Origin: Dysidea avara
Taxonomy: Eukaryota > Porifera > Demospongiae > Dictyoceratida > Dysideidae
Reading direction: 5' to 3'
DNA length: 64,000 nucleotides
NCBI RefSeq assembly: GCF_963678975.1
Contig: NC_089274.1
Location: forward strand, 17,253,633 to 17,317,632
Shown here: positions 18,001 through 60,332 of the stretch, piece by piece
Position numbering within the stretch: position 1 is the first letter of the stretch
Layout of the letters: each line of letters begins with the position of its first letter
Translations under genes and position numbers: made by a program
Notes under the pieces: generated by a model
Told to the model about the DNA's origin: nothing
Databases searched by the model: none
Seen by the model: only the letters and a program-made list of their open reading frames with translations

Positions 18001-21000
18001 AACCACGATTGATCTTCAGATTCTACTGTATAAAACAAACGGGATGAGTTCTCGTTAGTTCTTTCACCTATTAGGTGAGTGAGCCCCAAGTGATATATAT
18101 CACTTATACCATATATCAAGACACATGGTAGTGTGTCGTGCGGCCCAAGAAGCCGGCGCATAACACCCGTGAGTGTATTGACAGGAAGAAAGAAAATGCA
18201 ATTTTCGCACCTCTGTAGCTCTGTGCTGCCTTGATGAAACAAGACAAATTTTGATGTGGACACTCCCTCCACCTTCAGCACTCCACATTCCAAATTAGAG
18301 CGAAATCGCTTCAAGCGTTTCCGAGATATGCGACTTCAAAAATTGGCTTAGTTTCTTCGGGTTTTTTTCTTCCTCTTTTCGCACACTTACAAAAACTGCT
18401 ATAAAATGCAAACGCTATATCCGATTGCCTTGAAATTTGGCACACAGAAGCAGGGTTTAAAGGCGCATCTCTGTACCAACTTTGGCTAGGATACGATAAA
18501 CAGGAAAAGAGTTATGATCGATTATTCACGAAAAATAACACCAATATGTTGTCACGCCTACGGGGTAAACCGCGTATGGGAAGAAGCTGAAAATTGGTGG
18601 GTGAATAGGTTAACTATTGAACCTCAAACTTTTTGTGGTTTGAAAGAAATCGAGCTAAAAACCAGGAAGATACAACGAAAAAACCAACAGTGTGTAACAA
18701 TTACGCAATCGAGATTAGCTAATAAAAAAAAAACGACTACTTGCCACGCCTACCAGATAAACCGCTAGGGGGAATGCTTTGAAAATCGCTGTATAGAAGG
18801 AGTAATCATCTTAGAAAGGCTCTTCAATGGTGTAGAAGAATCAGACTTAAAGCCACGGAGTTATAACATGAAATCCAACTTGGTGCAGCAAGTGCGAGAT
18901 CAAGATACTCTAATAGAGCAGTCATCCTAATAGAACAGTCACCCTGAAGAGAATTCAAGAGATCAGCTAGAAACAAGTAACCTGTATAGAGATCAGCTAG
19001 AAACAAGTCACCCTGTAGAGAGTTCAGCTAGAAAAATTTACGTTATAGGGAGTTCATGCAACTACGGAAAGGGATAGTTCAGCTAGAAGAAATCACCTTG
19101 TAGAGTTCAGCTACATAGGAACTACCATGTAGAGAGTTCAACTACAAACAAATCGCCCTGTAGAGAGATCAGTAGAAGAAGTTACCTTGTAGAGAGGTCA
19201 GCTACAAACAAATCACCCTGTAGAAAGATCAGCTAGAAGGAGTCACCTTGTAGAGAGTTCAGTTACAAAGAAACCATCATGTAGAGAATTCAGCTACAAA
19301 CTAGTGACCTTGTAGAGACATCAGCTAAAAGAAATTACCTTGTAGAGAGTTCGGCTACAAAGAAACCACCATATAGAGAGTTCAGCTGCAAACAAATCAC
19401 CTGTAGAGAGGTCAGCTACAAACAAATCTCCCTGTAGAGAGATCAGCTAGAAGAAGTTTCCTTGTAGAGAGTTCAGCTACAAACAAATCACCCTGTAGAA
19501 AGATCAGCTAGAAGAAGTTACCTTGTGGAGAGTTCAGCTACAAAGAAACCATATTGTAGAGAGTTCAGCTGCAAACAAATCACCTATAGCGAGTTCAGCT
19601 ACAAACAAATCTCCCTGTAGAGAGATCAGCTAGAAGAAGTTACCTTGTAGAGAGTTCAGCTACAAAGAAACCATCATGTAGAGAGTTCAGCTGCAAACAA
19701 ATCACCTGTAAAGAGTTCAGCTACAAACAAATCTCCCTGTAGAGAGATCAGCTAGAAGAAGTTACCTTGTGGAGAGTTCAGCTTCAAAGAAACCATCATG
19801 TAGAGAGTTCAGCTGCAAACAAATCACCTGTATAGAGTTCAGTTACAAACAAATCTCCCTGTAGAGAGATCAGCTAGAAGAAGTTTCCTTGTAGAGAGTT
19901 CAGCTACAAACAAATCACCCTCTAGAAAGATCAGCTAGAAGAAGTCACCTTGTAGAGAGTTAAGTTACAAAGAAACCACCATATAGAGAGTTCAGCTGCA
20001 AACAAATCACCTGTAGAGAGTTAAGCTACAAACAAATCACCCTGTAGAGAGATCAGCTAGAAGAAGTTACCTTGTAGATTGTTCAGCTACTAACAATTCA
20101 CCCTGTAGAGAGGGCAGCAAGAAGAAGTCACCTTGTAGAGTGTTCAGTTACAAAGAAACCACCATGGAAAGTTCTGTAATAAATATATGTATTATATATA
20201 TATAATTTGTACATTTACTGATAAAATCAGAACTATTTAAAGTGCATCTGCTTCATCTTTTCTTCTTCCTGTGGTAAAGAAAAAAAAGACAGGTTAAAAA
20301 AGTGCCAAGGCCGGCCGTATACAAATACAAAAAGAAATGAAATATAATCCAAAACAGCCAAGCTGTAAAAAAACAGTGCGGCCCTCAAAAAGGCTATGGT
20401 GAAAAAGGATGTGAAATCCAAGGTGGCGGCCAAGAAATGGCTGTGATGGTAGGTTAATGGTGAAAATTTTAATAACGGCAATTTAGGTGAATTTTTGCCA
20501 AGACCAAGCAGCACAAAAATTCACCTGAATTGTCGTTATTAAAATTTTTACCATTAACCTACCATCACAGCCATTTCTTGGCCGCCACCTTGGATTTCAC
20601 ATCTTTTTTCACCATAGCCTTTTTGAGGGCCGCACTGTTTTTTTACAGCTTGGCTGTTTTGGATTAGATATATATATCAGCAAAATCCCTCACAGCCGTG
20701 GTATAACTATTATATAGCTGCTACTATACAGTTTCAATAAAGTACTGTATCTGTATGTATTTAGTAGTTTAAGCCATGTTTACCACTAGTGTAATCTCAT
20801 TTCATGTGCTTTTCCCTAGCAATATGCACTGAGTGCTGGTATTTACCACTTCAAGTGTCCACTGTGTGCAAACACTGAACGATTTGTACGTGACCTTATG
20901 CACTATGGTATCCAAGTGCCATTCAGGTTAGCAGTAGACACGAGTTATAAAGGTATTAGATGTAATCATTTTTCAGGGATGCATCTTGGGAATTGGGAGG

Positions 21001-21430: not shown

Positions 21431-21867
21431 ATAACATATATGCTAGATAAGGAGGCAATCAGTGAATATTCATAATATATATATACACAGAAATATTTAT
21501 ATCATTTTTTTTTATTCCATTAAGCAATGCCACAACAACTTGGCAGTCTGCATACATCAATGTATACTTACACGAGAATGTTTTGTATTTATTATTGTAA
21601 AGCGTAACAACGTAACTGTATGGATCATGAAATATATATATTATATTGTATAATTTGAAACACATAATCAAGTCGGAGATCATAACATGATAATTATACT
21701 GGTAGTTCTCTGTATGGTACATAAAAATAAAGAGCCTTTAAATACAACAAGTAGGAGTGCCATTTATCTACATGTGTATTTTCATCACAAAATTAACAGC
21801 CATGTCTAGCCTGAATTCTATAAAGTATGTCTATATGAATTTAAAATATTATGCTGCTGAGGAAATA
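21431..21867. other. AT-rich convergent 3' region
   Basis: Between the PHF7-like stop and the stop of the kinase-Roc-COR-caspase gene. Very AT-rich; no gene visible. Confidence 0.6.
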
Positions 21868-24800
21868 TCAAAAGAACCACACTTGTTTGCGAAGCAGAGA
21901 TACTGGGGCAGGACACTGCTTGTAGCCTTGAGTGGTGTAGGCTTCAGACACCCTTTCATTGACAACTGTTAACATGCTAAGGAGGTCTTCTTGTGGTGCA
22001 AAGTCCACAAGAACTTCACACAATTTGGAGATATACCAAGAACCATATTGAGGGCTCCTCCAGGATATGTTCCCTGGCGGTGTGGCATAGCCATACAAGA
22101 AATCAGCTTCACTTGGCAATGAATGACGAAATTTATCTTCAGTAGAATCCCTGTCATCACTTTGGAAAGCATACCCTACATCTTCCTCATCTCCACGACA
22201 AGCTTGGATGAAGAATAATTTTGGTTTGTTTGCAAGAGATGGGCAGAAACTGCCTGTAAACAAACTAGCAATATCCCTCATCTTCACTGGTTGGCTGTCT
22301 GTACCATATACACCATCGATGTAGCCATGGCTGAGGATACAACACACAAAACTATCAAATTGTTCATGACTTGCTAAGGAAATTTGCATTAGTTTACGAA
22401 GGAGTTCTGAAGCAGTGAGATTTCTCAATATTTTCACATCGTAACGGAGGTACATCCAAGTGGCACAAAGGTTCTGTTCGTCAACATCTGAGCCACTGCG
22501 ATTAGATAATGTTAGATTGGTAGAATCATCTGGGGAAAAATCAGAATTGTTAATGATGATAGCTATACCATGAGGGTATCTGTCCATTGGGTACCTCTGT
22601 GCTGTCAAACTAGATTGGTTCTGTAGCTTAGTGGTTCCCCTTACTGAAGTATCAATATTATGTTGTTGAGTCATTGTGTTGTATTTTAGTTTGTGATGTT
22701 TCTGTAAGTTTGTTTTGGTGCCTGGCTGTTGATACTGTTGTATAGCCTGCTGTTTCTCCCGTGGTTGTTGCGATGATGTTTCTTGTTTCAATTCTTTTCT
22801 GGTTGAAAACAAATCCTCACTGTGTTGTGATCTTTTCTGATAAGTCAAATCATCTAGTGATGCTCTCAATGGCTCAACACTTCCACATTGCTCATCCAGT
22901 CTTGTGGTCCCCTCTTCTGTAGTACTCCGTCTCATGAAGTATTGATCTTCTGGATAACTCCTATGGCTTGAATAAACTGCAGTCACTCTGTGAGGATGCT
23001 GTGTTGACTCATAGTCCAGTTGTTGTAGTTGATGTGGATCACCGAGAGATGGTGTTGCTGCAAAAGACGATAAGGATCATTAAAACATGAGTATAAATCC
23101 TGATACATGCAGACACACATGGGTAGCACTCCCCCAGTAATAATTACATGATGTCCAACTAGCCACAGGCTGGCATGTGCCCCCCCTCCTCCCAATCTTA
23201 TAAAATCAATAACAGAACAAAATACTCTAATAGAGCATTCAGCTAACAGTCAGGTGTATGTAAGATTGTACTGAATAATGAACCGACTGTTCACATTAAC
23301 TTTCCTGATATGAAACATTAACAATAAGTGGCCTTAATGGGTAATTCAGTATCATCTCTTCCAAAAATTACATACAATCTGATGAGTTACCTGTTAAACT
23401 GGCAGGATCTAGGAGGTCATCATAGTAATTACGAGGCAACCGAGTATCATTAGAAGTAGCACAGAAGATGGAGTTACCACTGGATATGTCACTAAGGGTA
23501 ACATGGAGTATTGGGCAGTGTGGACAGGGGACAAATCTTATTGGACGTTTCTTTACTACTAGCAGGAACTCCTTCAAGATATCATTCAGCAATCTAGTTA
23601 TATCATTGATCAGTTCCCTTCTCTCTTGAGCACTAGATAAATCATCTTTATCTGGCATAGTGATAGTTAACTGGATACTTCCCTTCTCCTCACAATGACT
23701 GATGTAGTATATCTGATGAGCTCCCAAGTGCAGTCCCACCTTGCCATACCTCATCCTGTAACAGATAAGTTTTGACATTTAAGTTTGCAACACAGAACGT
23801 ACCATAACAATTTACATCTTTTCATCATGCTATGACAAATACACTTAGCTATCAGCTTGTTCAGAAGACCAATGGGGACAAAACCATCGTCGAATTTGAA
23901 GTAGATAATTCTCTGCTGTAGAGTATTGGGAGGATTTTTCCCATCATCACGTGGAACATGAAAAGGAACAATGATTGCATCTTCATGGTTTGGCAATAAA
24001 GAGTAGCCCTCCTCACTAAACCAAGTAGTTTCACAACCCAGCAGGTGAAGAATGCCCTTGACCTGTTTCTCCGTCACACGTACTTCACTAGAATAATCCA
24101 AGTGGAATGCTTCTAACCTCTTAAGAAGACTCTCGTGGAGAACACTATATTTATCAAAGCAACTAGCCTTACTGCAGTCAACTACAACATAGTAGTACGC
24201 AGCAACAGTGTAGCTTAAGAGTTTGGAAAGCCACCAAGGGGACAATATCACAAGATCTTTCAGAGACTTAATCTGGCTGAAGTATGAAATGGTACACCTT
24301 TCATGTAGGTATCTCAACAGGTCTTCAAACTCTGAGCTGTTCTCAGCCATTGGAATGGTGCATTTTGTAACCAAGTCAAGCATATTGGATTTTGAAATAG
24401 CATGCTCTTTGCATTGCAAAAGTTCCGCCTCAATGTTAAGGATATAGATTGGTTGGCCTTTCTTCACTAGAGTAGAAGCTTCAATGGCAGTATTTTTCAA
24501 ACGTTCTATCTCTTCATCATGACATTTGTTGCTGATAAAAAAGCAAAATTGTTGTAGAGCATTCTTAAGACCTTTGCTATAGCCAGCTAAATGCCGAGCA
24601 TAATGCTTTTCAAATAGCTCTTTCTCAAGCTGAGGTAAGATCTTATCTCTGGCAATCTCTCTAGCCACCTTAAGGTCAGGATGCAGTTTGTCAATATGAG
24701 TACCAGCTAGTATTGCAGTTGGTCGTAAGTGATCATCCTCTCCTTCCACTGAACAAACAGAATCAACAACCTTTAGCCAGTAGTGGATACCAGAAATAGA

Positions 24801-26232
24801 ATTGTGACACTCTGGTGGCTGGTAAGAGCCTTCATCTGGAACAATCTCTTCTGTTAGCTCCTTGGAAGCATCAAATGTGATCACAGGTACAGTATGCTCT
24901 GAAATGAAGGCAGAGGAAACATTGTGAAGGATTGCATCACCTGTGAAGTCCAAAATAGTAGCACAGAGATTGTCTATTGCTTGTGAGTGAAGCTCAGAGG
25001 GACTGTCAATGGCACAAGAAGGAGCTGTTGATTTAGAGACAAAACCGAGGTTCAAGGAAGACATACATTTGGTTTTGATGTGTTGTGTAACCTGGTCAAT
25101 AAACAGATCATGGAGATCGCTGGCCTTGTCAATTCTTTTCCAATCTTTGCAGAAAACTTTTTGTGCAGCCACATCAACTTCCTTACTGGTTCCCTCCAAA
25201 AATTCCTCATTGATTAATGATGCAACAAGACTGGTCTTCCCGCAATTCTTTGCTCCTACTACTAGCAACTGTAGATCTCTGGTCTGAACTTGTTGTTCCT
25301 TTAGAACATGCAAATAGTCCATCTTGATATCACTGTCCTTGTAGTGGCATTCTGTAATGGAACAATGACCTCATAATAAATGAGACAATATACAACTGAC
25401 CTGTTATCATACTGGTGATCTCCTCACAGATCTGTGATATTGTGGGACGTCTTTCTGGATCATCACTTAAACACTTCCTTGTTAGTTGCTTTAATGGCTC
25501 TGTACTGAACTGATCAATGTAGTGTTGACGTCTCTCAACTTCACTTTCTTTCTTGTAAGTTTGGGAGGCTGGTTTGGGCCATTGCTGACTACCAACATGA
25601 CAGATAACACAACCAAATGAGAACACGTCATACGGCAGTCCATAGTGACCCTTGAGTGCCTCTGGTGGCATAAAGCCAACAGTTCCTGGAGCTGCTTGAA
25701 CACTCTTTACAAATGGTGCCTCCTTTGCAGCTACAAAATCACTGATCTTGGCAACTTTACTCTTTGTCAACAGAATGTTATCACAAGTCAGGTCACGATG
25801 TATCACAGGAGGGTTTAGAGTGTGGAGGTACCTCAATCCTTTACTAACATCTCGTAATACAGATAGCTTAAAATACATGTGAAGGTTCTGGGAGCTCTCC
25901 AGTAAAGAGGTAAGGCTACAATCCATCAGTTCCATCACTAGAACTGGTAGTACAGCTTGTTCACTAGCATAATACACTCCTAACATCTTCACTATGTTTG
26001 GATGATCGAGTTTGCTGTGCTGAACACACTCGTGTAGGAAATCACGTTTGACCTGTTTAACGTTGCCCTCAACATACACCGAATTTAGTTCTTTACCAGC
26101 ACACACAGTACCATTGTATTCAACCTTGAATATCCTACCATAGGCCCCACAGGCTATTTCACAACTGCTCAGTTTTACGCCAGTAAGTTTCACGTCCTTT
26201 AACTCGCCAGCCATCGATTTTGAGTCGTCCAT
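21868..26232 (-). CDS. Kinase-Roc-COR-caspase fusion protein
   Basis: Exons 25401-26232, 23803-25351, 23391-23755 and 21868-23057 join in phase (1, 2, 1) to 1311 residues. Residues about 20-275 are a protein kinase: Gly loop GAYGRIFKV, Lys47, Glu68, HRDLTCDN at 145-152, DFV at 165-167 in place of DFG, and a PPEAL segment. Residues about 300-500 are a Roc GTPase with P-loop GAKNCGKTS (310-318). A COR region follows (YLHERCTISYF, ILSPWWLSKLL), and exon 3 continues it with PCPHC. A Gln-rich linker leads to a caspase domain (about 1070-1311) with catalytic His in ILSHG (H1159), Cys in QACRG (C1202) and the GSWYI substrate-pocket motif. Roc-COR proteins are GTPase scaffolds (LRRK, DAPK1, MASL1); here the kinase precedes Roc as in DAPK1. 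The splice joins are predicted from GT/AG sites and phase, not from transcripts. Three adjacent genes are the alternative, but in-phase junctions argue against it. Confidence 0.87.
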
Positions 26233-26404: not shown

Positions 26405-29400
26405 TGGTATTTCGTCTAAGAAGATTAAGTTCTGTACCACATATTGAAAATTTACCTATCCCACTAATGGAACCTATCAGTATTAATCCAGAAGGTGTTA
26501 AAAACTTATTAGAAAACCTGGAGGTAAACAAAGCTCCAGGTCCAGACCAAATTCCACCCCGATTTTTAAAAACCTTTGCAAACTACATTACGGCCTTTCT
26601 TGTGCTGATCTTTAGGGCCTCTTTGCATCAAGGTCACCTTCCATCTGAATGGAAACATGCTACTGTTGTGCCTGTTTTTAAAAAGGGAGATCGTAAATTA
26701 CCATTAGTGCAGTACATAAGCCCTTAAAATTGACATAATCGTTCACTTTTTGATAAAAGCACCAATTTTTTTACAGGGTATATGGAGCGTGCACTAAGTG
26801 TTTTAAGAAGGGGAGGCACGTAAAAAGTCCTCAGGAACACCCCTATTTGCACCCTGGCAAGAAAACCATTTGTTACTATTAAAAATCAATCATGTTTCTA
26901 TCAAGTTAACTGCTGGGCCTAGTATCATAGTAGTACAAAGCATACAGCTGGAACATATTAGCCTATTAGTAATCTATAAAAAAACAAATAGTTTTCCCAC
27001 CTAGGCAGTAAACAAAATCACTAAAATTTCCATTTGCGGGGATTCTGTTAAAGTTTTGGACCTTCAATGCTGACGATTGTGTAGTACTATGTACAAGGAT
27101 CATCCTGATGTGTATCATTTCTTTATTAAAGGGGTATAACAAAAGCTATTTAATGCTAAAGTCACAGGTGGATAGCTCAACAAAAAACCATGAACTACAG
27201 CAGTTCAATTATCAAGCACAGAGCTTGAACAAAAGGTCTCTTGTCCTTATACTGGGCACCATATGAAAGGTAATTAAATTTATAATTTAATGAAGGCAGT
27301 TGCAAGTTGTTTCAACATCTTGCTCTCAAGTTACAGCGCTTTCAATTCAGTGTAATATAGTATAAGCAAGAAAGCACACAGATGAGTATTAAGGTATTTC
27401 TTAGTGCTGTGATAATGCTCAAAATAAGCATAAAGGAGCTAGGTTCCAATGAAGTGAGATTTTGAGCACTAAGAAGTACCTTATGACACATCCATGTACT
27501 TTTCTTGCTTATACTATATTACACTGAATTGAAAGCGCTGTAACTTCAGAACAAGATGTTGAAACAACTTGCAACTGCCTTCATTAAACTATAAATTTAA
27601 TTACCTTTCATATGGTGCCCAGTATAAGGACAAGGGACCTTTTTGTTCAAGCTTTGTACTTGATAATTGAACTGCTGTAGTTCATGGTTTTTTGTTGAGA
27701 TATCCACCTGTGACTTTAGCATTAAATAACTTTTGTTATACCCCTTTAATAAAGAAACGATACACATCAGGATGATCCTTGTACATAGTACTACACAATC
27801 GTCAGCATTGAAGGTCCAAAACTTTAACAGAATCCCTGCAAATGGAAATTTTAGTGATTTTGTTTACTGCCTAGGTGAGAAAACTATTGTTTTTTTATAG
27901 ATTACTAATAGGCTATTATGTTCCAGCTGTATGCTTTGTACTACTATGATACTAGGCCCAGCAGTTAACTTGATAGAAACATGATTGATTTTTAATAGTA
28001 ACAAATAGTTTTCTTGTCAGGGTGCAAAAAGGGGTGTTCCTGAGGACTTTTTATGTGCCTCCCCTTCTTAAAACACTTAGTGCACGCTCCATATACTCTG
28101 TAAAAAAATTGGTGCTTTTATCAAAAAGTGAACGAATATTTGGCTTAGGCGCTGGACTAATCTAACTACCGCCCAATATCCTTAACATCAATCTGTTGTA
28201 AAGTTCTAGAGCACATCATCTATTCTTCCATCAGCTCTCATTTGGAAAATCATCAACTTATTCGAGAAGAACAGCATGGTTTTCAGAAAAATAAGTCCTG
28301 TGAAACACAACTGATCTACACAATTCATGAATTTGCAACAATACTTAATAATGGTGGAGAAGTGGATGCTTTATTTCTTGACTTTAGCAAAGCTTTCGAT
28401 AAAGTTCCACATGTAAGACTTCTTCAAAAACTTGAGCATTACAGAATTTGTCCACAACTTATCAATTGGATAAAAGATTTTCTTGGAAAAAGACAACAGC
28501 AAGTAGTTCTGAATGGTGTAACTAGTGAGCAGTGTGAGGTTATCTCTGGCGTACCGCAAGGTACAGTACTTGGCCCTTTACTATTTACTTGTTTTATTAA
28601 CGACCTACCAGCTCTAGTGAACTCTCAGATATGACTCTACGCTGATGATATACTTATTTTTAGACCGATTTATTCAAATGAAGACACTTTAGTATTGCAG
28701 AGAGACCTTGATGCCATACTGAGGTGGAGTGAAGACTGGCAAATGTTTTTCAACCTTAGCAAATGTGTACACCTCAAGATCACTAACAGGATATTAACAA
28801 CTAACTCAACATATTTTCTGAAACAACATCAAATTTGCAGATCTACCAGTGCCACTTACCTGGGGGTAACAATAGATAAACACCTGAAATGGACAAACCA
28901 TATCCAACATGTTACCTGTAAAGCAAACTCAGCCAATGCCTTTTTGCGACGTAATATTAGCTCTTGCACTCAACAAACTAAGAAGCTTTGTTATCTAGCA
29001 ATGGTACGTCCTATCTTAGAGTATGCATCAACTGTCTGGTCTCCATACACTAACAGTAGCATCTACAAGTTAGAAATGGTCCAACGAAGAGCTGCAAGGT
29101 TTATTACAAACAATTATTCACCCTGGGCTAGTGTAACTGAGATACTAGATCACCTGAATCTACCAACTCTTGAACAGCGACGGAACAATTTGAAGCTTGT
29201 TATGATGTATAAAATGGTGCATAGACTAGTTCACATTGATAATGGAACCTATTTAATCCCAACAGCAAGCCAAACACGAGGTCACGATCAACGATTTTTG
29301 CAGCCACACTCCAGAATTGATTCTTACCTCTACTCTTATTACCCCTCTACAATTAAATTATGGAATAACCTATCTAGCAGTACTGTGGAATCACCTACCT

Positions 29401-29484
29401 TAAACACATTTAAACAATGTATTAATTATAGCTAAGTACAATCACTACAATTTATTCTTAATTTAATCTGTTGTATACTATATA
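26405..29484 (+). mobile_element. 5'-truncated non-LTR retrotransposon (LINE, CR1/Jockey-like), interrupted
   Basis: Reverse transcriptase fragments read in one direction: NKAPGPDQIP and PVFKKGDR upstream; then, after a 1.4 kb insertion, LFLDFSKAFDKVPH, SGVPQGTVLGPLL and YADD, and a C-terminal thumb region VQRRAARFITNNYS ... LEQRRNNLKLVMMYKMVHRL. The endonuclease half is missing, as expected of 5' truncation on target-primed insertion. A stop codon precedes the YADD motif, so the copy is dead. Its 3' tail ends against a hAT MITE. The truncated 5' end lies about 170 bases upstream of the kinase-Roc-COR-caspase start codon on the opposite strand. Confidence 0.88.
26709..28154. mobile_element. 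1.4 kb palindromic (foldback) element inside the LINE
   Basis: The sequence from about 26742 (CGTTCACTTTTTGATAAAAG) is repeated in inverse almost to 28135, with arms of about 650-690 bases meeting near 27440. Ends resemble CAGnnCnTAAGCC. No ORF of note. It separates the KKGDR block of the reverse transcriptase from the YRPIS block. No clear target duplication could be fixed by eye. Confidence 0.85.
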
Positions 29485-37037: not shown

Positions 37038-37384
37038 GGAAGGTTCTGTGAGGACTTCAGTGATGAGGTAAGGCTACAATCCATCAGCTCCATCACTAGA
37101 ACTGGTAGTAGCTACAGCTTGTTCACAAAGATACTGAATGCACTCCTAACATCTTCACTATGTTTGGATGATCGAGTTTACTGTGCTGAAGATACTCGTG
37201 TAGGAAATCATGTTTGACTTGTTTAACATTGCCCTCCACGTACATGTCATGTAGTCGTTTCAGCAGCACACGCTGTACCATCGTATATCACTTTAAATAC
37301 AGTCCCATATGCTCCACAGGCTAGTTCACTACTATCAACCGGCTCAACTCCGGTAAATTTCAAATGCTTTACGCTATCGGTCAT
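37038..37384 (-). pseudogene. Truncated, frame-broken copy of the kinase exon of the fusion gene
   Basis: From an ATG at 37384 the minus strand encodes MTDSVKHLKFTGVEPVD and ELACGAYGTVFKVIYDGTAC, closely parallel to the start of the kinase-Roc-COR-caspase protein (KLTGVKLSSCEIACGAYGRI). The frame is lost after about 50 codons, around where the ATP-binding lysine would lie, by a net gain of one base. DNA similarity continues to about 37038 (residue about 115 of the kinase) and then stops. No Roc, COR or caspase sequence follows. It is a partial duplicate, now dead. Its 5' flank was hit by the nested foldback at 37454-41474. Confidence 0.85.
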
Positions 37385-56894: not shown

Positions 56895-59800
56895 ATGGTG
56901 TCATATCAAGTGGCTCCCCCAAGTGCCTTCAACTTCTCCAACCCTGAGGAATGGCCGAAATGGATTCGCCAGTTCCAGAGATTTCATCAGGCATCTGGTT
57001 TGAGTGAAAAGAGCTCCAAGAACCAAGTAAACACGCTTGTTTATACTATGGGCGATGCAGCCAACGATATCCTTTCTTCATTTGGTCTATCAGACAACAA
57101 CAAGAAGATGTATGAGACAGTGGTGGTGAAGTCACTTCATTAAGAAACGTTAACCAGAGAAAGCAAGAAGAGGGTGAGTCAGTTGATGAATTTATTACAG
57201 ACCTGCATTGCCTGTCTGAACATTGTAATTACGGTGGACTGCGAGAGGAGATGATTCGTGATAGAATTGTTGTTGGGCTACGCGATTCTACCTTGGCTGA
57301 GAGGTTGCAACTAGTAGCGGATCTAACTCTTGAAAAAGCCATAACAGCAGCCCGCCAGGTGGAATCTGTAAAGAAGCAACAGAAAGTAGTTAGAGCTGCA
57401 GAAGGTAGCCACTCTACACAGTTGAAGATTGACGTTATAGGCACCACAAAGTCTAGTGGCAAATCAGTTGGAACTAAAGCAGCTGTTAAGCAACCAGTCA
57501 AGCCAGTCCCTCCTACTGTTTCAAAGATATGTACCAGATGTGGAAAGCGTCAGCATCTTGGTAAGCAGCAGTGTCCAGCTTGTGATGCAACATGTCGAAA
57601 GTGTCACAAACGTGGCCATTTTTAAGCTATGTGCCGAACTAAAGCACTGAAAGTTGTTTCAACTGAGGAGCAGGGAGACTCAGACACAGCAGACTCATTT
57701 GTGGGAGTAATTACAGAATCTGAATCTCTGCAATCAGTACTGGAACTGAGCCATGAATGGTTACTAATTCGTTGAACACATTTCTGCAGATTGATACAGG
57801 GGCTGATGTCAGTGTCATTCCAGAGAAGCTTTATAAGAAGCTACAGGCACCACTACTAGAATCTACCAAGAGATCCCTCATTGGACCTAGTCAAGATAAG
57901 CTACAAGTACGAGGACAGTTTACTGGTACTCTTGTACACAATAGTAAAACAGTGCAAGACGTAGTCTACGTGGTCAAAGGATTACATAAAGCCTTTATTG
58001 GACGTCCAGCAATCACTGTATTGCAGTTGGTCTCTCATATCAATGCTATTGACTCTGTTTGACAGGGAATAGTTTTCAAATTTCCAATGTTGTTCAAAGG
58101 TCTTGGTACCATTGACAGTGAGTACAACATAGTACTGAAACATGATGCAAGACCATACGCCCTTGTAACACCCCGAAAAATTCCTTTACCTCTGAAATCT
58201 CAAGTTGAAAAGGGGCTCCAACGTATGGAGAAATTGGGTGTTACCCATAGAGTTAATACTCCAACTGAGTGGTGTGCAGGGATGGTCGTTGTCTCCAAGG
58301 GCAACAACAAGGTACGCATATGTGTTGACTTAACTAAACTTAATAGGAGTGTGTGTTGTGAACACCATATTCTCCCTTATGTGGAGCAGACTCTAGCACA
58401 GCTAAATGGGGCCAAGGTGTTTAGTAAATTAGATGCCAATTCAGGTTTTTAGCAAATAAGATTGTCAGAAAAGTCTGCATTATTGACCACTTTTATTACA
58501 CCTATGGAAAGATTTTGCTTTAACCATTTGCCATTTGGCAAAACATGTGCTCCAGAGTTTTACCATGCAGAAGAGGATGTCCCATATTTTGTCTGGCTTG
58601 CCAGGTGTGGTCAGTATGATTGATGACATTTTAGTATTTGGCCAGTCCCAGGAAGAGCATGACCACAGACTAGAATTAGCTCTTGATAGAATTAACAAGG
58701 CTGGCATTACTCTCAATTCTGAGAAGTGCGAATTTTCAAAGAAATGTGTAATTTTTTTGGGCCATATGATTGATGATTCAGGTATTCACCCAGACCCAGA
58801 GAAAATTCTGGCTATTCAGCAGATGAAAACACCAACCAGTGTTTCTGAGTTGCGTCGTTTTTTGGGCATGGTGACCTACTTGAGTAAATTCTCTCCCAAT
58901 TTGTCCCAAAAGGTCAAAGATTTGTGTGATCTTTTAAGTACCAAGAATGAGTGGTTTTGGAACACATGCCAGCAAGAAGCTTTTGACCAGATTAAGTAAG
59001 GGCTTAGTAGTACTCCTGTTCTGGCACTTTATGATCCTGGTAAGGAGACCATGGTCTCAGCCAATGCCTCCAGTTTCGGCATAGGTACAGTTTTGGCACA
59101 AAAACAGAGTAACCACCAGTGGCAGCCAGTTGCATGTGCCTCCAAATCACTGACTTCAACTGAAGAAAAGTACGCCCAAATTGAAAAAGAGGCATTGGGC
59201 ATAACTTGGGCATGTGAGAGGTTTAGTGAGTACTTGCTTGGTATGTTATTTAAGATTGAAACAGACCACAAGCCTTTGGTGTCACTCTTGGGTGTTAAGA
59301 ATTTGGAAGAGTTACCAGTTCGAATCCAACATTTTCGAATGAGACTAATGAGATTCACCTTTACTATCTCACATGTCCCAGGCAAAGACCTGACAATTGC
59401 CGACACTCTGTCCCGTGCCCCTGCAACAACAGCGTCAGATGCTGATGTTTGTTTCTGTCAGGACGCTGACATGTTTGTTAATGTTTTGTTTATCAACTAC
59501 AGAAAAGCGACTTGCTGAGGTGAACTGACAGAAACAAGCAGAAGATGAAGTTTTCCAGCAGTTGAAGAAATACTGTAAGTCAGGATGGCCCAACAAACAT
59601 GACGTGCCTGTTGTACTTAGACCATACTTCTCAGTATCAGCTGAGGTACATGACATCCTGATGCGTAATAACCGAATTCTGGTTCCATTTTCTATGTGTC
59701 AAGACATTCTAGCCAGATTGCACACAGGACACCAGGGGATCACAAAGTGTCGCAGAAGAGCTTTACAATCTGTTTAGTGGCCTGGCCTCAGTAAGCAGTT

Positions 59801-60332
59801 AGTGTCGACCTGTGTGGAGTGTTGTAGAAACAAGTACCAGAATGCTGAACCTTTACTACCAGCTTCATTTCCCAAGCTTCCATGGCAAAAAGTTGCCAGT
59901 GATTTGTTTGTGTGGAAGAATTCACACTATCTCTTGGTCATTGACTACTTCTCTAGATATATTGAGATAGCGAAGTTGACTCCTGAAAGTACAGGTTATG
60001 TCATTAAACACATGAAATCAATTTTTGCGAGGCATGGGATACCACAAGAGTTGATCTCGGACAATGGTCCACAGTATTCCTCGAGGGAATTACTAACTTT
60101 GCTAAGGAGTATGGATTTGTACACACTACTAGTAGTCCTCAGTATCCACAGGCAAATGGTAAAGCTGAGCGGGCGGTGAGAATGGTGAAAGCATTTCTTG
60201 AGAAGTCAAGGGATCTATACCTTGCTTTGTTGACATATCAGGCTACACCGATCACGGACACTGGCTATAGTCCTGCAGAATTACTAATGAACAGAAAGAT
60301 TAGAACCACCTTACTAATTTTACCGCAGGATC
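56895..60332 (+). mobile_element. Old, broken Ty3/gypsy-type LTR retroelement, main body
   Basis: A fossil gag-pol element, recognised by family blocks in the usual order: gag-like start (about 56900-57150) and zinc knuckle region (about 57530-57620); aspartic protease (about 57760-58050, DTGADVSVIP); reverse transcriptase (about 58090-58960), RNase H (about 59040-59410) and integrase (about 59560-60330). It carries several breaks (roughly half a dozen or more) and cannot be active. No LTR pair could be defined inside the window. The 3' part is displaced by an insertion and resumes at 63775. The similarity of the blocks to intact relatives suggests moderate age. Confidence 0.9.

Follow-up and report, generated by a model that had tools for sequence, protein, structure and literature searches.

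Can a protein kinase, a Roc-COR GTPase and a caspase be united in one animal gene? The question is raised by a locus of the sponge Dysidea avara, which we analysed in a window of 64,000 nt (NC_089274.1:17253633-17317632, contig C3; genome of 550.8 Mb in 108 contigs). On the minus strand of the window four exons splice into a frame of 1311 amino acids with a single terminal stop. Its three introns (49, 47 and 333 bases) begin with GT, end with AG and interrupt the frame in phases 1, 2 and 1; retention of any one of them truncates the protein at 300, 810 or 922 amino acids. The whole gene lies within 4.4 kb on one 50 Mb contig. Exon 4 is open by itself for about 396 codons, which on the assumption of equal codon use has a chance of about 6e-9. 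The intron sites common to the relatives described below support the predicted gene structure far better than this chance argument. The original prediction of a four-exon gene with 1311 residues and the phases 1-2-1 was borne out by the splice sites and the shared intron sites, and every motif that it had named is present in the protein (K47, HRD, GAKNCGKTS, ILSHG, QACRG and GSWYI). Taken together, an open, phase-consistent predicted gene that unites kinase, Roc-COR and caspase is confirmed as a gene model. The locus probably encodes a single chain, kinase-Roc-COR-linker-caspase, which would have arisen by exon replacement and would carry a caspase fired by dimerisation.

The kinase domain scored far over the Pfam cut-off with 6e-37. 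The residues K47, E68, D147 of the HRD motif (145-147), N152 and D165 were retained, and the kinase exon matched the roco4 kinase at 1.6e-19. Exon 2 carries the Roc motifs GAKNCGKTS (310-318, P-loop), DFTG (412-415, DxxG) and THID (495-498, THxD). We aligned the window gene with five relatives, leaving out L033 and L034 because of stops or broken frames. In this family alignment COR-A and Roc were detected at E ≤ 0.01 in six of six sequences each (best values 1.6e-11 and 3e-11) and COR-B in three of six. The top PDB match of the family profile, along the P-loop stretch, was a chain named 'Leucine-rich-repeat protein' (4wnr, 8.8e-8), which we take to be an archaeal Roc-COR protein, while the COR stretch of the profile found the COR region of LRRK2 at 0.0013. 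Roc followed by COR in one chain is the hallmark of Roco proteins, and the family members match both domains. We infer that the predicted Roc domain binds GTP and that COR mediates dimerisation. An AlphaFold2 model of exon 2 (residues 279-793) from the single sequence reached a predicted local distance difference test (pLDDT) score of 32 and was not used.

The caspase domain scored 192 bits against a cut-off of 21.4 (PF00656, 1.6e-56) and matched caspase-3 and caspase-8 among PDB sequences at 3.6e-52 and 1.1e-45. It shows the caspase (C14) fold with the His/Cys dyad, and the motifs ILSHG, QACRG and GSWYI are located at 1156-1160, 1200-1204 and 1254-1258. The catalytic His and Cys motifs align with caspase-3, as do two arginines that presumably belong to the S1 substrate pocket of caspases. 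Asp-bearing stretches after QACRG, e.g. DDRD/ST at 1219, could serve as self-cleavage sites. Neither a DED nor a CARD was detected in the protein by Pfam, i.e. the prodomain of an initiator caspase is absent.

Exons 1 to 3 belong to a family of kinase-Roc-COR-CARD genes, of which we compared seven relatives (L029+L031 and L032-L037), taking intron phases from the junction sequences. All seven carry a Roc-COR exon, followed by exon 3 and a CARD-like exon. Six also have the kinase exon, which was not seen in the 3.8 kb examined of L036. Introns 2 and 3 occupy the same place and phase as in the window gene in seven of seven relatives. The same holds for intron 1 in six of seven, the donor exon not being seen in L036. 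The window gene has the exon order of the family, kinase, Roc-COR and exon 3 with introns in phases 1, 2 and 1, and its Roc-COR exon is 52-67% identical to those of the seven relatives. Yet it lacks their C-terminal CARD-like exon and has an exon for linker and caspase in its stead, and the kinases of the paralogs are mostly degenerate. About 9 kb past the end of the window (C3:17326347-17329227) lies the closest paralog of exons 1-3, with identities of 77% in the kinase, 63-67% in the Roc-COR exon and 89% in exon 3.

The CARD-like exon is a common companion of Roc-COR in this genome. At least 19 Roc-COR starts (18 genes) out of 63 examined have a CARD-like match on the same strand ≤4 kb downstream. 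The 63 starts were drawn from 92 genome-wide matches without pieces of the same genes and were compared with 43 of 150 CARD-like matches, so that the count is a lower bound. Among the 15 best-scoring Roc-COR relatives, 13 have such a match downstream. We call the exon CARD-like because weak Pfam matches and its position are what points to a CARD. In an alignment read by eye L032 was the only one of six relatives with a readable kinase exon in which neither catalytic Asp (HRD, DFG) is lost; the kinase family thus seems to drift toward pseudokinases, the window kinase being the best preserved among those compared. Broken members occur as well: L033 and L034 carry stops; by locus, the broken copies are those on C14 and C8, and no kinase exon was seen in the C2 stretch.

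Genome-wide, COR-A gave at least 150 matches, a lower bound since 150 out of 365 candidates were scored, and the window kinase gave about 140 at ≥44% identity. The genome harbours a very large Roco and kinase expansion, in which several of the Roc-COR-linked kinases examined look like pseudokinases. A second CARD-like exon, C3:17321032-17321313 (L029 frame 1993-2388, minus), lies some 5 kb downstream of the one that belongs to the paralog; it has no Pfam CARD match, and no further kinase or Roc-COR match was present in L029. Within the window a broken fragment of kinase exon 1 at 37040-37384 on the minus strand consists of pieces with 77% and 42% identity, the latter with stops. This fragment is a remnant of another copy in the local array.

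Exon 4 leads to another source, the DED-caspases. We counted at least 89 caspase-domain matches in the genome. A cluster at C9:3.1-3.5 Mb accounts for 31 of them, among which some are fragments of a single gene. In 200 kb of the cluster we found 14 DED matches that precede caspase matches by 1-3 kb; further caspase matches there were without a DED match. Two DED exons gave Pfam values of 5.7e-13, over the cut-off, and 1.8e-8, one bit under it. No relative of the kinase, Roc or COR of the window protein was found in these 200 kb at E 1e-4. In the DED-caspase L001 a phase-1 donor closes the upstream exon, and the exon after it begins with A/PPFGDHHQ. Exon 4 of the window gene begins in phase 1 with A/TPSLGDPHQ and is homologous to the linker and caspase exon of L001 from the first codons. 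The alignment of the two linkers scored 132 versus 72 for the best of 500 shuffles. By tree path L001 is also the nearest neighbour of the window caspase (75% identity over 240 columns), followed by C9:3389668 and L042. The C9 DED-caspases thus share with the window gene the linker and caspase exon, the phase-1 acceptor and the active-site motifs, but they carry a DED exon upstream and, in the 200 kb examined, no kinase-Roc-COR relative. As a whole the region C9:3.10-3.50 Mb (L001-L028) is a tandem DED-caspase cluster, a large caspase expansion in which some matches contain stops.

Neither docking domain is detectable at the locus itself. The best CARD match in the 64-kb window had an E of 1.7 and lay on kinase sequence, and the best DED match had an E of 7.2, none of four DED queries giving a match at E 0.001. 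Because the window has no CARD-like exon where the sister genes have one, the phase-1 donor of exon 3 leads to the caspase exon. The shared introns, the CARD-like exon of the relatives, the homology of exon 4 with a DED-caspase exon and the absence of CARD and DED here lead us to infer that the docking exon was replaced by the linker and caspase exon of a DED-caspase gene, both of which follow phase-1 introns. As to the direction of the swap, the CARD state would be the older one, being the commoner. Intron 3 contains a dispersed repeat with 39 other genome matches among 40 scored of 105 candidates. Compared with the DED-caspase stretch it yielded five matching pieces of 25-61 bases only, with no clear copy shared at a caspase exon of that stretch. 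The repeat may or may not have aided the fusion.

For the window caspase domain, the branch had a Ks of 0.75 and a Ka/Ks (ratio of nonsynonymous to synonymous substitutions) of 0.17 in a comparison of three sequences (window, L001 and C9:3389668), a value that shows purifying selection on the branch of this predicted domain. The branch Ka/Ks was 0.27 for the kinase and 0.34 for exon 2 with Roc-COR, calculated versus the paralog with L037 as the third sequence. Synonymous divergence from the nearest paralog was uneven: exon 1 had a Ks of 0.44, exon 2 of 0.57 and exon 3 (window 23391-23755 versus C3:17326347-17326751) of 0.18, and along exon 2 the value varied from 0.16 to 1.16 per 60 codons. 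Because Ks is low in exon 3 and patchy in exon 2, gene conversion between CARD-type and caspase-type genes is possible.

Has a COR domain been joined to a part of a caspase gene elsewhere? On C6 we found an 888-codon frame (C6:86246-88909, minus, in L048, C6:85001-92500) that encodes a caspase-gene linker followed by COR-A, without a caspase. Its N-terminal part aligned to the DED-caspase linker with a score of 245, versus 81 for the best of 1000 shuffles (42% identity, 1.1e-16). The COR-A domain with 46.2 bits is over the Pfam cut-off. The stretch before COR-A had no Pfam Roc match and no match to the window Roc-COR at E 0.01, and the entire frame had none to the window kinase or Roc-COR exons at the same E. 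Among the matches listed, this is the only other neighbourhood with caspase and COR ≤20 kb apart on one strand. Because the C6 frame carries linker-COR and the window gene COR-linker, at least two fusions, one in each order, have brought COR together with a predicted caspase-gene module. Visual inspection of the sequence ahead of COR-A suggests a Roc, with a DxGGQ motif and a P-loop in degenerate form. The caspase at C6:75634 was considered as a second kinase-Roc-COR-caspase gene and rejected; the COR-A 11 kb upstream of it belongs to the separate 888-codon frame.

How might a chain of this composition work? Initiator-type caspases fire when brought together, and the dimers of Roco proteins are controlled by nucleotide. 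The sister genes would draw in a partner through their CARD-like exon, and the DED-caspases through their DED. In the simplest version of the one-chain switch, which would run from kinase to protease as the original prediction had it, a signal would first alter kinase and Roc-COR. In the window gene GTP, and perhaps the kinase too, would control the Roc-COR core, which would pair two chains and thereby bring the two attached caspase domains together for self-activation, whereupon the activated caspases would cut themselves free at Asp sites. Neither a CARD/DED adaptor nor a separate pro-caspase would be needed. A passage of PMC7159879 describes COR as a dimerisation domain. The guess of the original prediction that a built-in protease replaces a separate adaptor step gained support from the paralogs, which carry a CARD-like exon at the place of the caspase exon. 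The model implies transcription across intron 3; the protein would have to bind GTP, dimerise and activate itself, and it would presumably act in cell death or immunity.

Alternatively, the locus might be a pair of neighbouring genes: the first, kinase-Roc-COR, would end inside intron 3, and the second, a prodomain-less caspase, would have its promoter in the same intron. Read-through of intron 3 indeed stops after 922 amino acids, and exon 4 has in-frame ATGs, the first coding for M957 in FMRRS (956-960). Yet AATAAA or ATTAAA occurs on the minus strand from 26300 down to 21301 just at 25495 within exon 1, at 21593 and at 21516, and not in the 333 bp of intron 3. Furthermore, the donor of intron 3 is the one used before the CARD-like exon in seven of seven relatives and its acceptor shows homology with the acceptor of the DED-caspase exon, both in phase 1. 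The linker aligns as a whole with the DED-caspase linker, and an internal start would leave it partly untranslated because its first 40 residues precede the first in-frame ATG. With no DED match anywhere in the window at E 0.001 either, we regard two separate genes as unlikely. It is less likely again that the fused protein is made with the caspase as a regulator or decoy, or with a pseudokinase chain as a scaffold only. The altered DFG motif of the kinase, which reads DFV, and the loss of a catalytic Asp in all of the six relatives with a readable kinase exon but L032 would suit a role of this kind, but the window kinase retains K47, E68, D147, N152 and D165, and the conserved His, Cys and two arginines of the caspase together with purifying selection on its branch argue for a working protease. 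Finally, a chimera of assembly or annotation, or a recent non-functional fusion, would account for the single copy among the matches listed, the dispersed repeat in the joining intron and the company of broken family members (L033 and L034). We consider this explanation very improbable: the four exons are open, in phase, bounded by canonical sites and contained in 4.4 kb of one contig, and Ka/Ks is well under 1 on the window branches for the caspase domain, the kinase and exon 2.

Several observations weigh against our preferred view of a single kinase-Roc-COR-linker-caspase chain that arose by exon replacement. The gene is predicted from genomic sequence, and it is the only kinase-Roc-COR-caspase gene among the genome matches listed. 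The profile checks for Pkinase, Roc, COR and Peptidase_C14 that the original prediction called for succeeded in part: kinase and caspase were far over the cut-off, but in the single protein Roc (residues 306-347, 4e-5) with 24.4-26.9 bits and COR-A (3e-7) with 30.9-31.4 bits were just under their Pfam cut-offs of 27 and 35.3. The family profile also matches ordinary small GTPases, its second match being a mitochondrial Rho GTPase (2.4e-4). As to the kinase, the third residue of the DFG motif is V (D165-F166-V167), and five of the six relatives with a readable kinase exon are without one of the two catalytic Asp. The CARD-like exons stayed under the Pfam CARD cut-off, with five of eight matching at E ≤ 1 (best 3.4e-4), and their profile matched no CARD chain in PDB, the best hit at 0.04 being an unrelated protein. 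No starred clade of the caspase tree contains the window caspase. The constrained caspase branch with its Ks of 0.75 may partly predate the fusion, and the branch estimate for exon 3 gave a negative Ks and was unusable.

Table. Features of the kinase-Roc-COR-caspase locus (window positions) and of its relatives (genome positions).
Feature	Position	Strand	Basis or remark
Exon 1: start codon and protein kinase domain	25401..26232	-	kinase residues 28-270, about 25423-26151
Intron 1, 49 bp, GT-AG, phase 1	25352..25400	-	place and phase as in L029, L032-L035, L037
Exon 2: Roc GTPase (from about 25268), COR-A, start of COR-B	23803..25351	-	Pfam, motifs, family alignment
COR-A in exon 2, residues 583-699	about 24087-24437	-	Pfam
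Intron 2, 47 bp, GT-AG, phase 2	23756..23802	-	common to 7/7 relatives
Exon 3: end of COR region, phase-1 donor	23391..23755	-	donor precedes CARD-like exon in 7/7 relatives
Intron 3, 333 bp, GT-AG, phase 1	23058..23390	-	join between both source families
Dispersed-repeat copy within intron 3, approximate limits	23204..23345	-	genome matches
Exon 4: linker and caspase, ends at stop codon	21868..23057	-	splice model, Pfam
Exon 4, 5' part: linker	22570..23055	-	homologous to DED-caspase L001 linker
Caspase domain, residues 1079-1307	21883..22569	-	Pfam; SHG, QACRG, two arginines aligned to caspase-3
Two AATAAA poly(A)-type signals 3' of caspase stop	21511..21593; at 21593, 21516	-	motif search
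Seven kinase-Roc-COR-CARD relatives	C3:17.326 Mb, C9:26.236, C14:10.340, C8:32.096, C13:2.429, C2:54.301, C11:0.471		

Elsewhere in the window, pieces of retroelement frames lie on the plus strand at 28161-29432 and 58487-60176. Pfam detected a reverse transcriptase in both, and RNase H and integrase in the second. A 61-base tandem repeat at 18958-20163 (about 20 copies, 75% matches) lies 1.7 kb downstream of the caspase stop.

Domain fusions serve to infer which separate proteins act together. Here one family docks via a CARD-like domain, one of its members carries the protease itself, and the C6 locus joins linker and COR in the opposite order. The CARD-like family, its protease-bearing member and the C6 frame lead to the testable prediction that caspases may at one time have been under the direct control of Roc-COR kinases, to which the disease proteins LRRK2 and DAPK1 belong. 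A protein with kinase, GTPase and caspase in one chain would also offer a small natural model in which to learn whether dimerisation driven by GTP is enough to fire a caspase. More tentatively, and with the odds somewhat against it, early animals might have had in Roc-COR a third type of platform for caspase activation, alongside STAND-ATPases (Apaf-1, NLR) and death-receptor DED complexes. Roc-COR would act via the CARD in kinase-Roc-COR-CARD adaptors and would be hard-wired to the protease in the window gene, as a one-chain, GTP- and kinase-gated self-activating caspase. The C6 fusion, with the caspase-gene linker before COR, speaks for such a functional tie.

How does the protein compare with known systems? 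DAPK proteins are built as kinase-ankyrin-Roc-COR-death domain, the kinase of DAPK1 being N-terminal, and LRRK proteins as LRR-Roc-COR-kinase-WD40. The window protein follows neither layout: its Pfam scan shows no ankyrin, death domain, LRR or WD40, and the kinase stands before Roc-COR. Caspase-8 is a DED-caspase. The window caspase shares catalytic fold and residues with caspase-8 and caspase-3, yet unlike caspase-8 the window gene has kinase-Roc-COR instead of a DED/CARD prodomain. Roco proteins such as DAPK1, LRRK2, Dictyostelium Roco4 and those of Trichoplax combine Roc-COR with kinase or death-fold/TIR domains, as is partly the case here. Roco proteins with CARD or death domains are described in Trichoplax (PMC4104024) and Toll-like receptors with ROC-COR in Aplysia (PMC9334734); in contrast to the window gene, none is named with a caspase in the relevant passages of these two papers. 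In the sponge Amphimedon, Death-like/TRADD-N proteins have variable C-termini that include caspase or kinase (PMC8195603). Like the window gene they are a case of sponges combining death and immune domains with caspases in a lineage-specific way, but they are based on TRADD-N, and the section on them mentions no Roc-COR-caspase. Related architectures may exist in Dysidea avara itself, since the published paper on this species has CASc and COR among the abbreviations in the legend of its NLR figure.

A kinase-Roc-COR-caspase protein was not found in the top-ranked open-access full-text results on this architecture, supplementary files and subscription papers being outside the search. To this extent the statement of the original prediction that no Roc-COR protein is known to have a built-in caspase has stood, but other shortcut fusions of receptors or scaffolds to caspases have been published. 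The closest precedent is the amphioxus TNFR-caspase and LRR-caspase genes, which are described as shortcuts, with cDNA for TNFR-caspase and death-caspase (PMC2575513). As in the predicted window gene a sensor or scaffold is joined directly to a caspase, bypassing adaptor domains; unlike it, they come from a different animal group, and the passage on them names no kinase or Roc-COR. Caspase fusions to sensors and scaffolds are already known, and the predicted combination of kinase, Roc-COR and caspase would be a further one.

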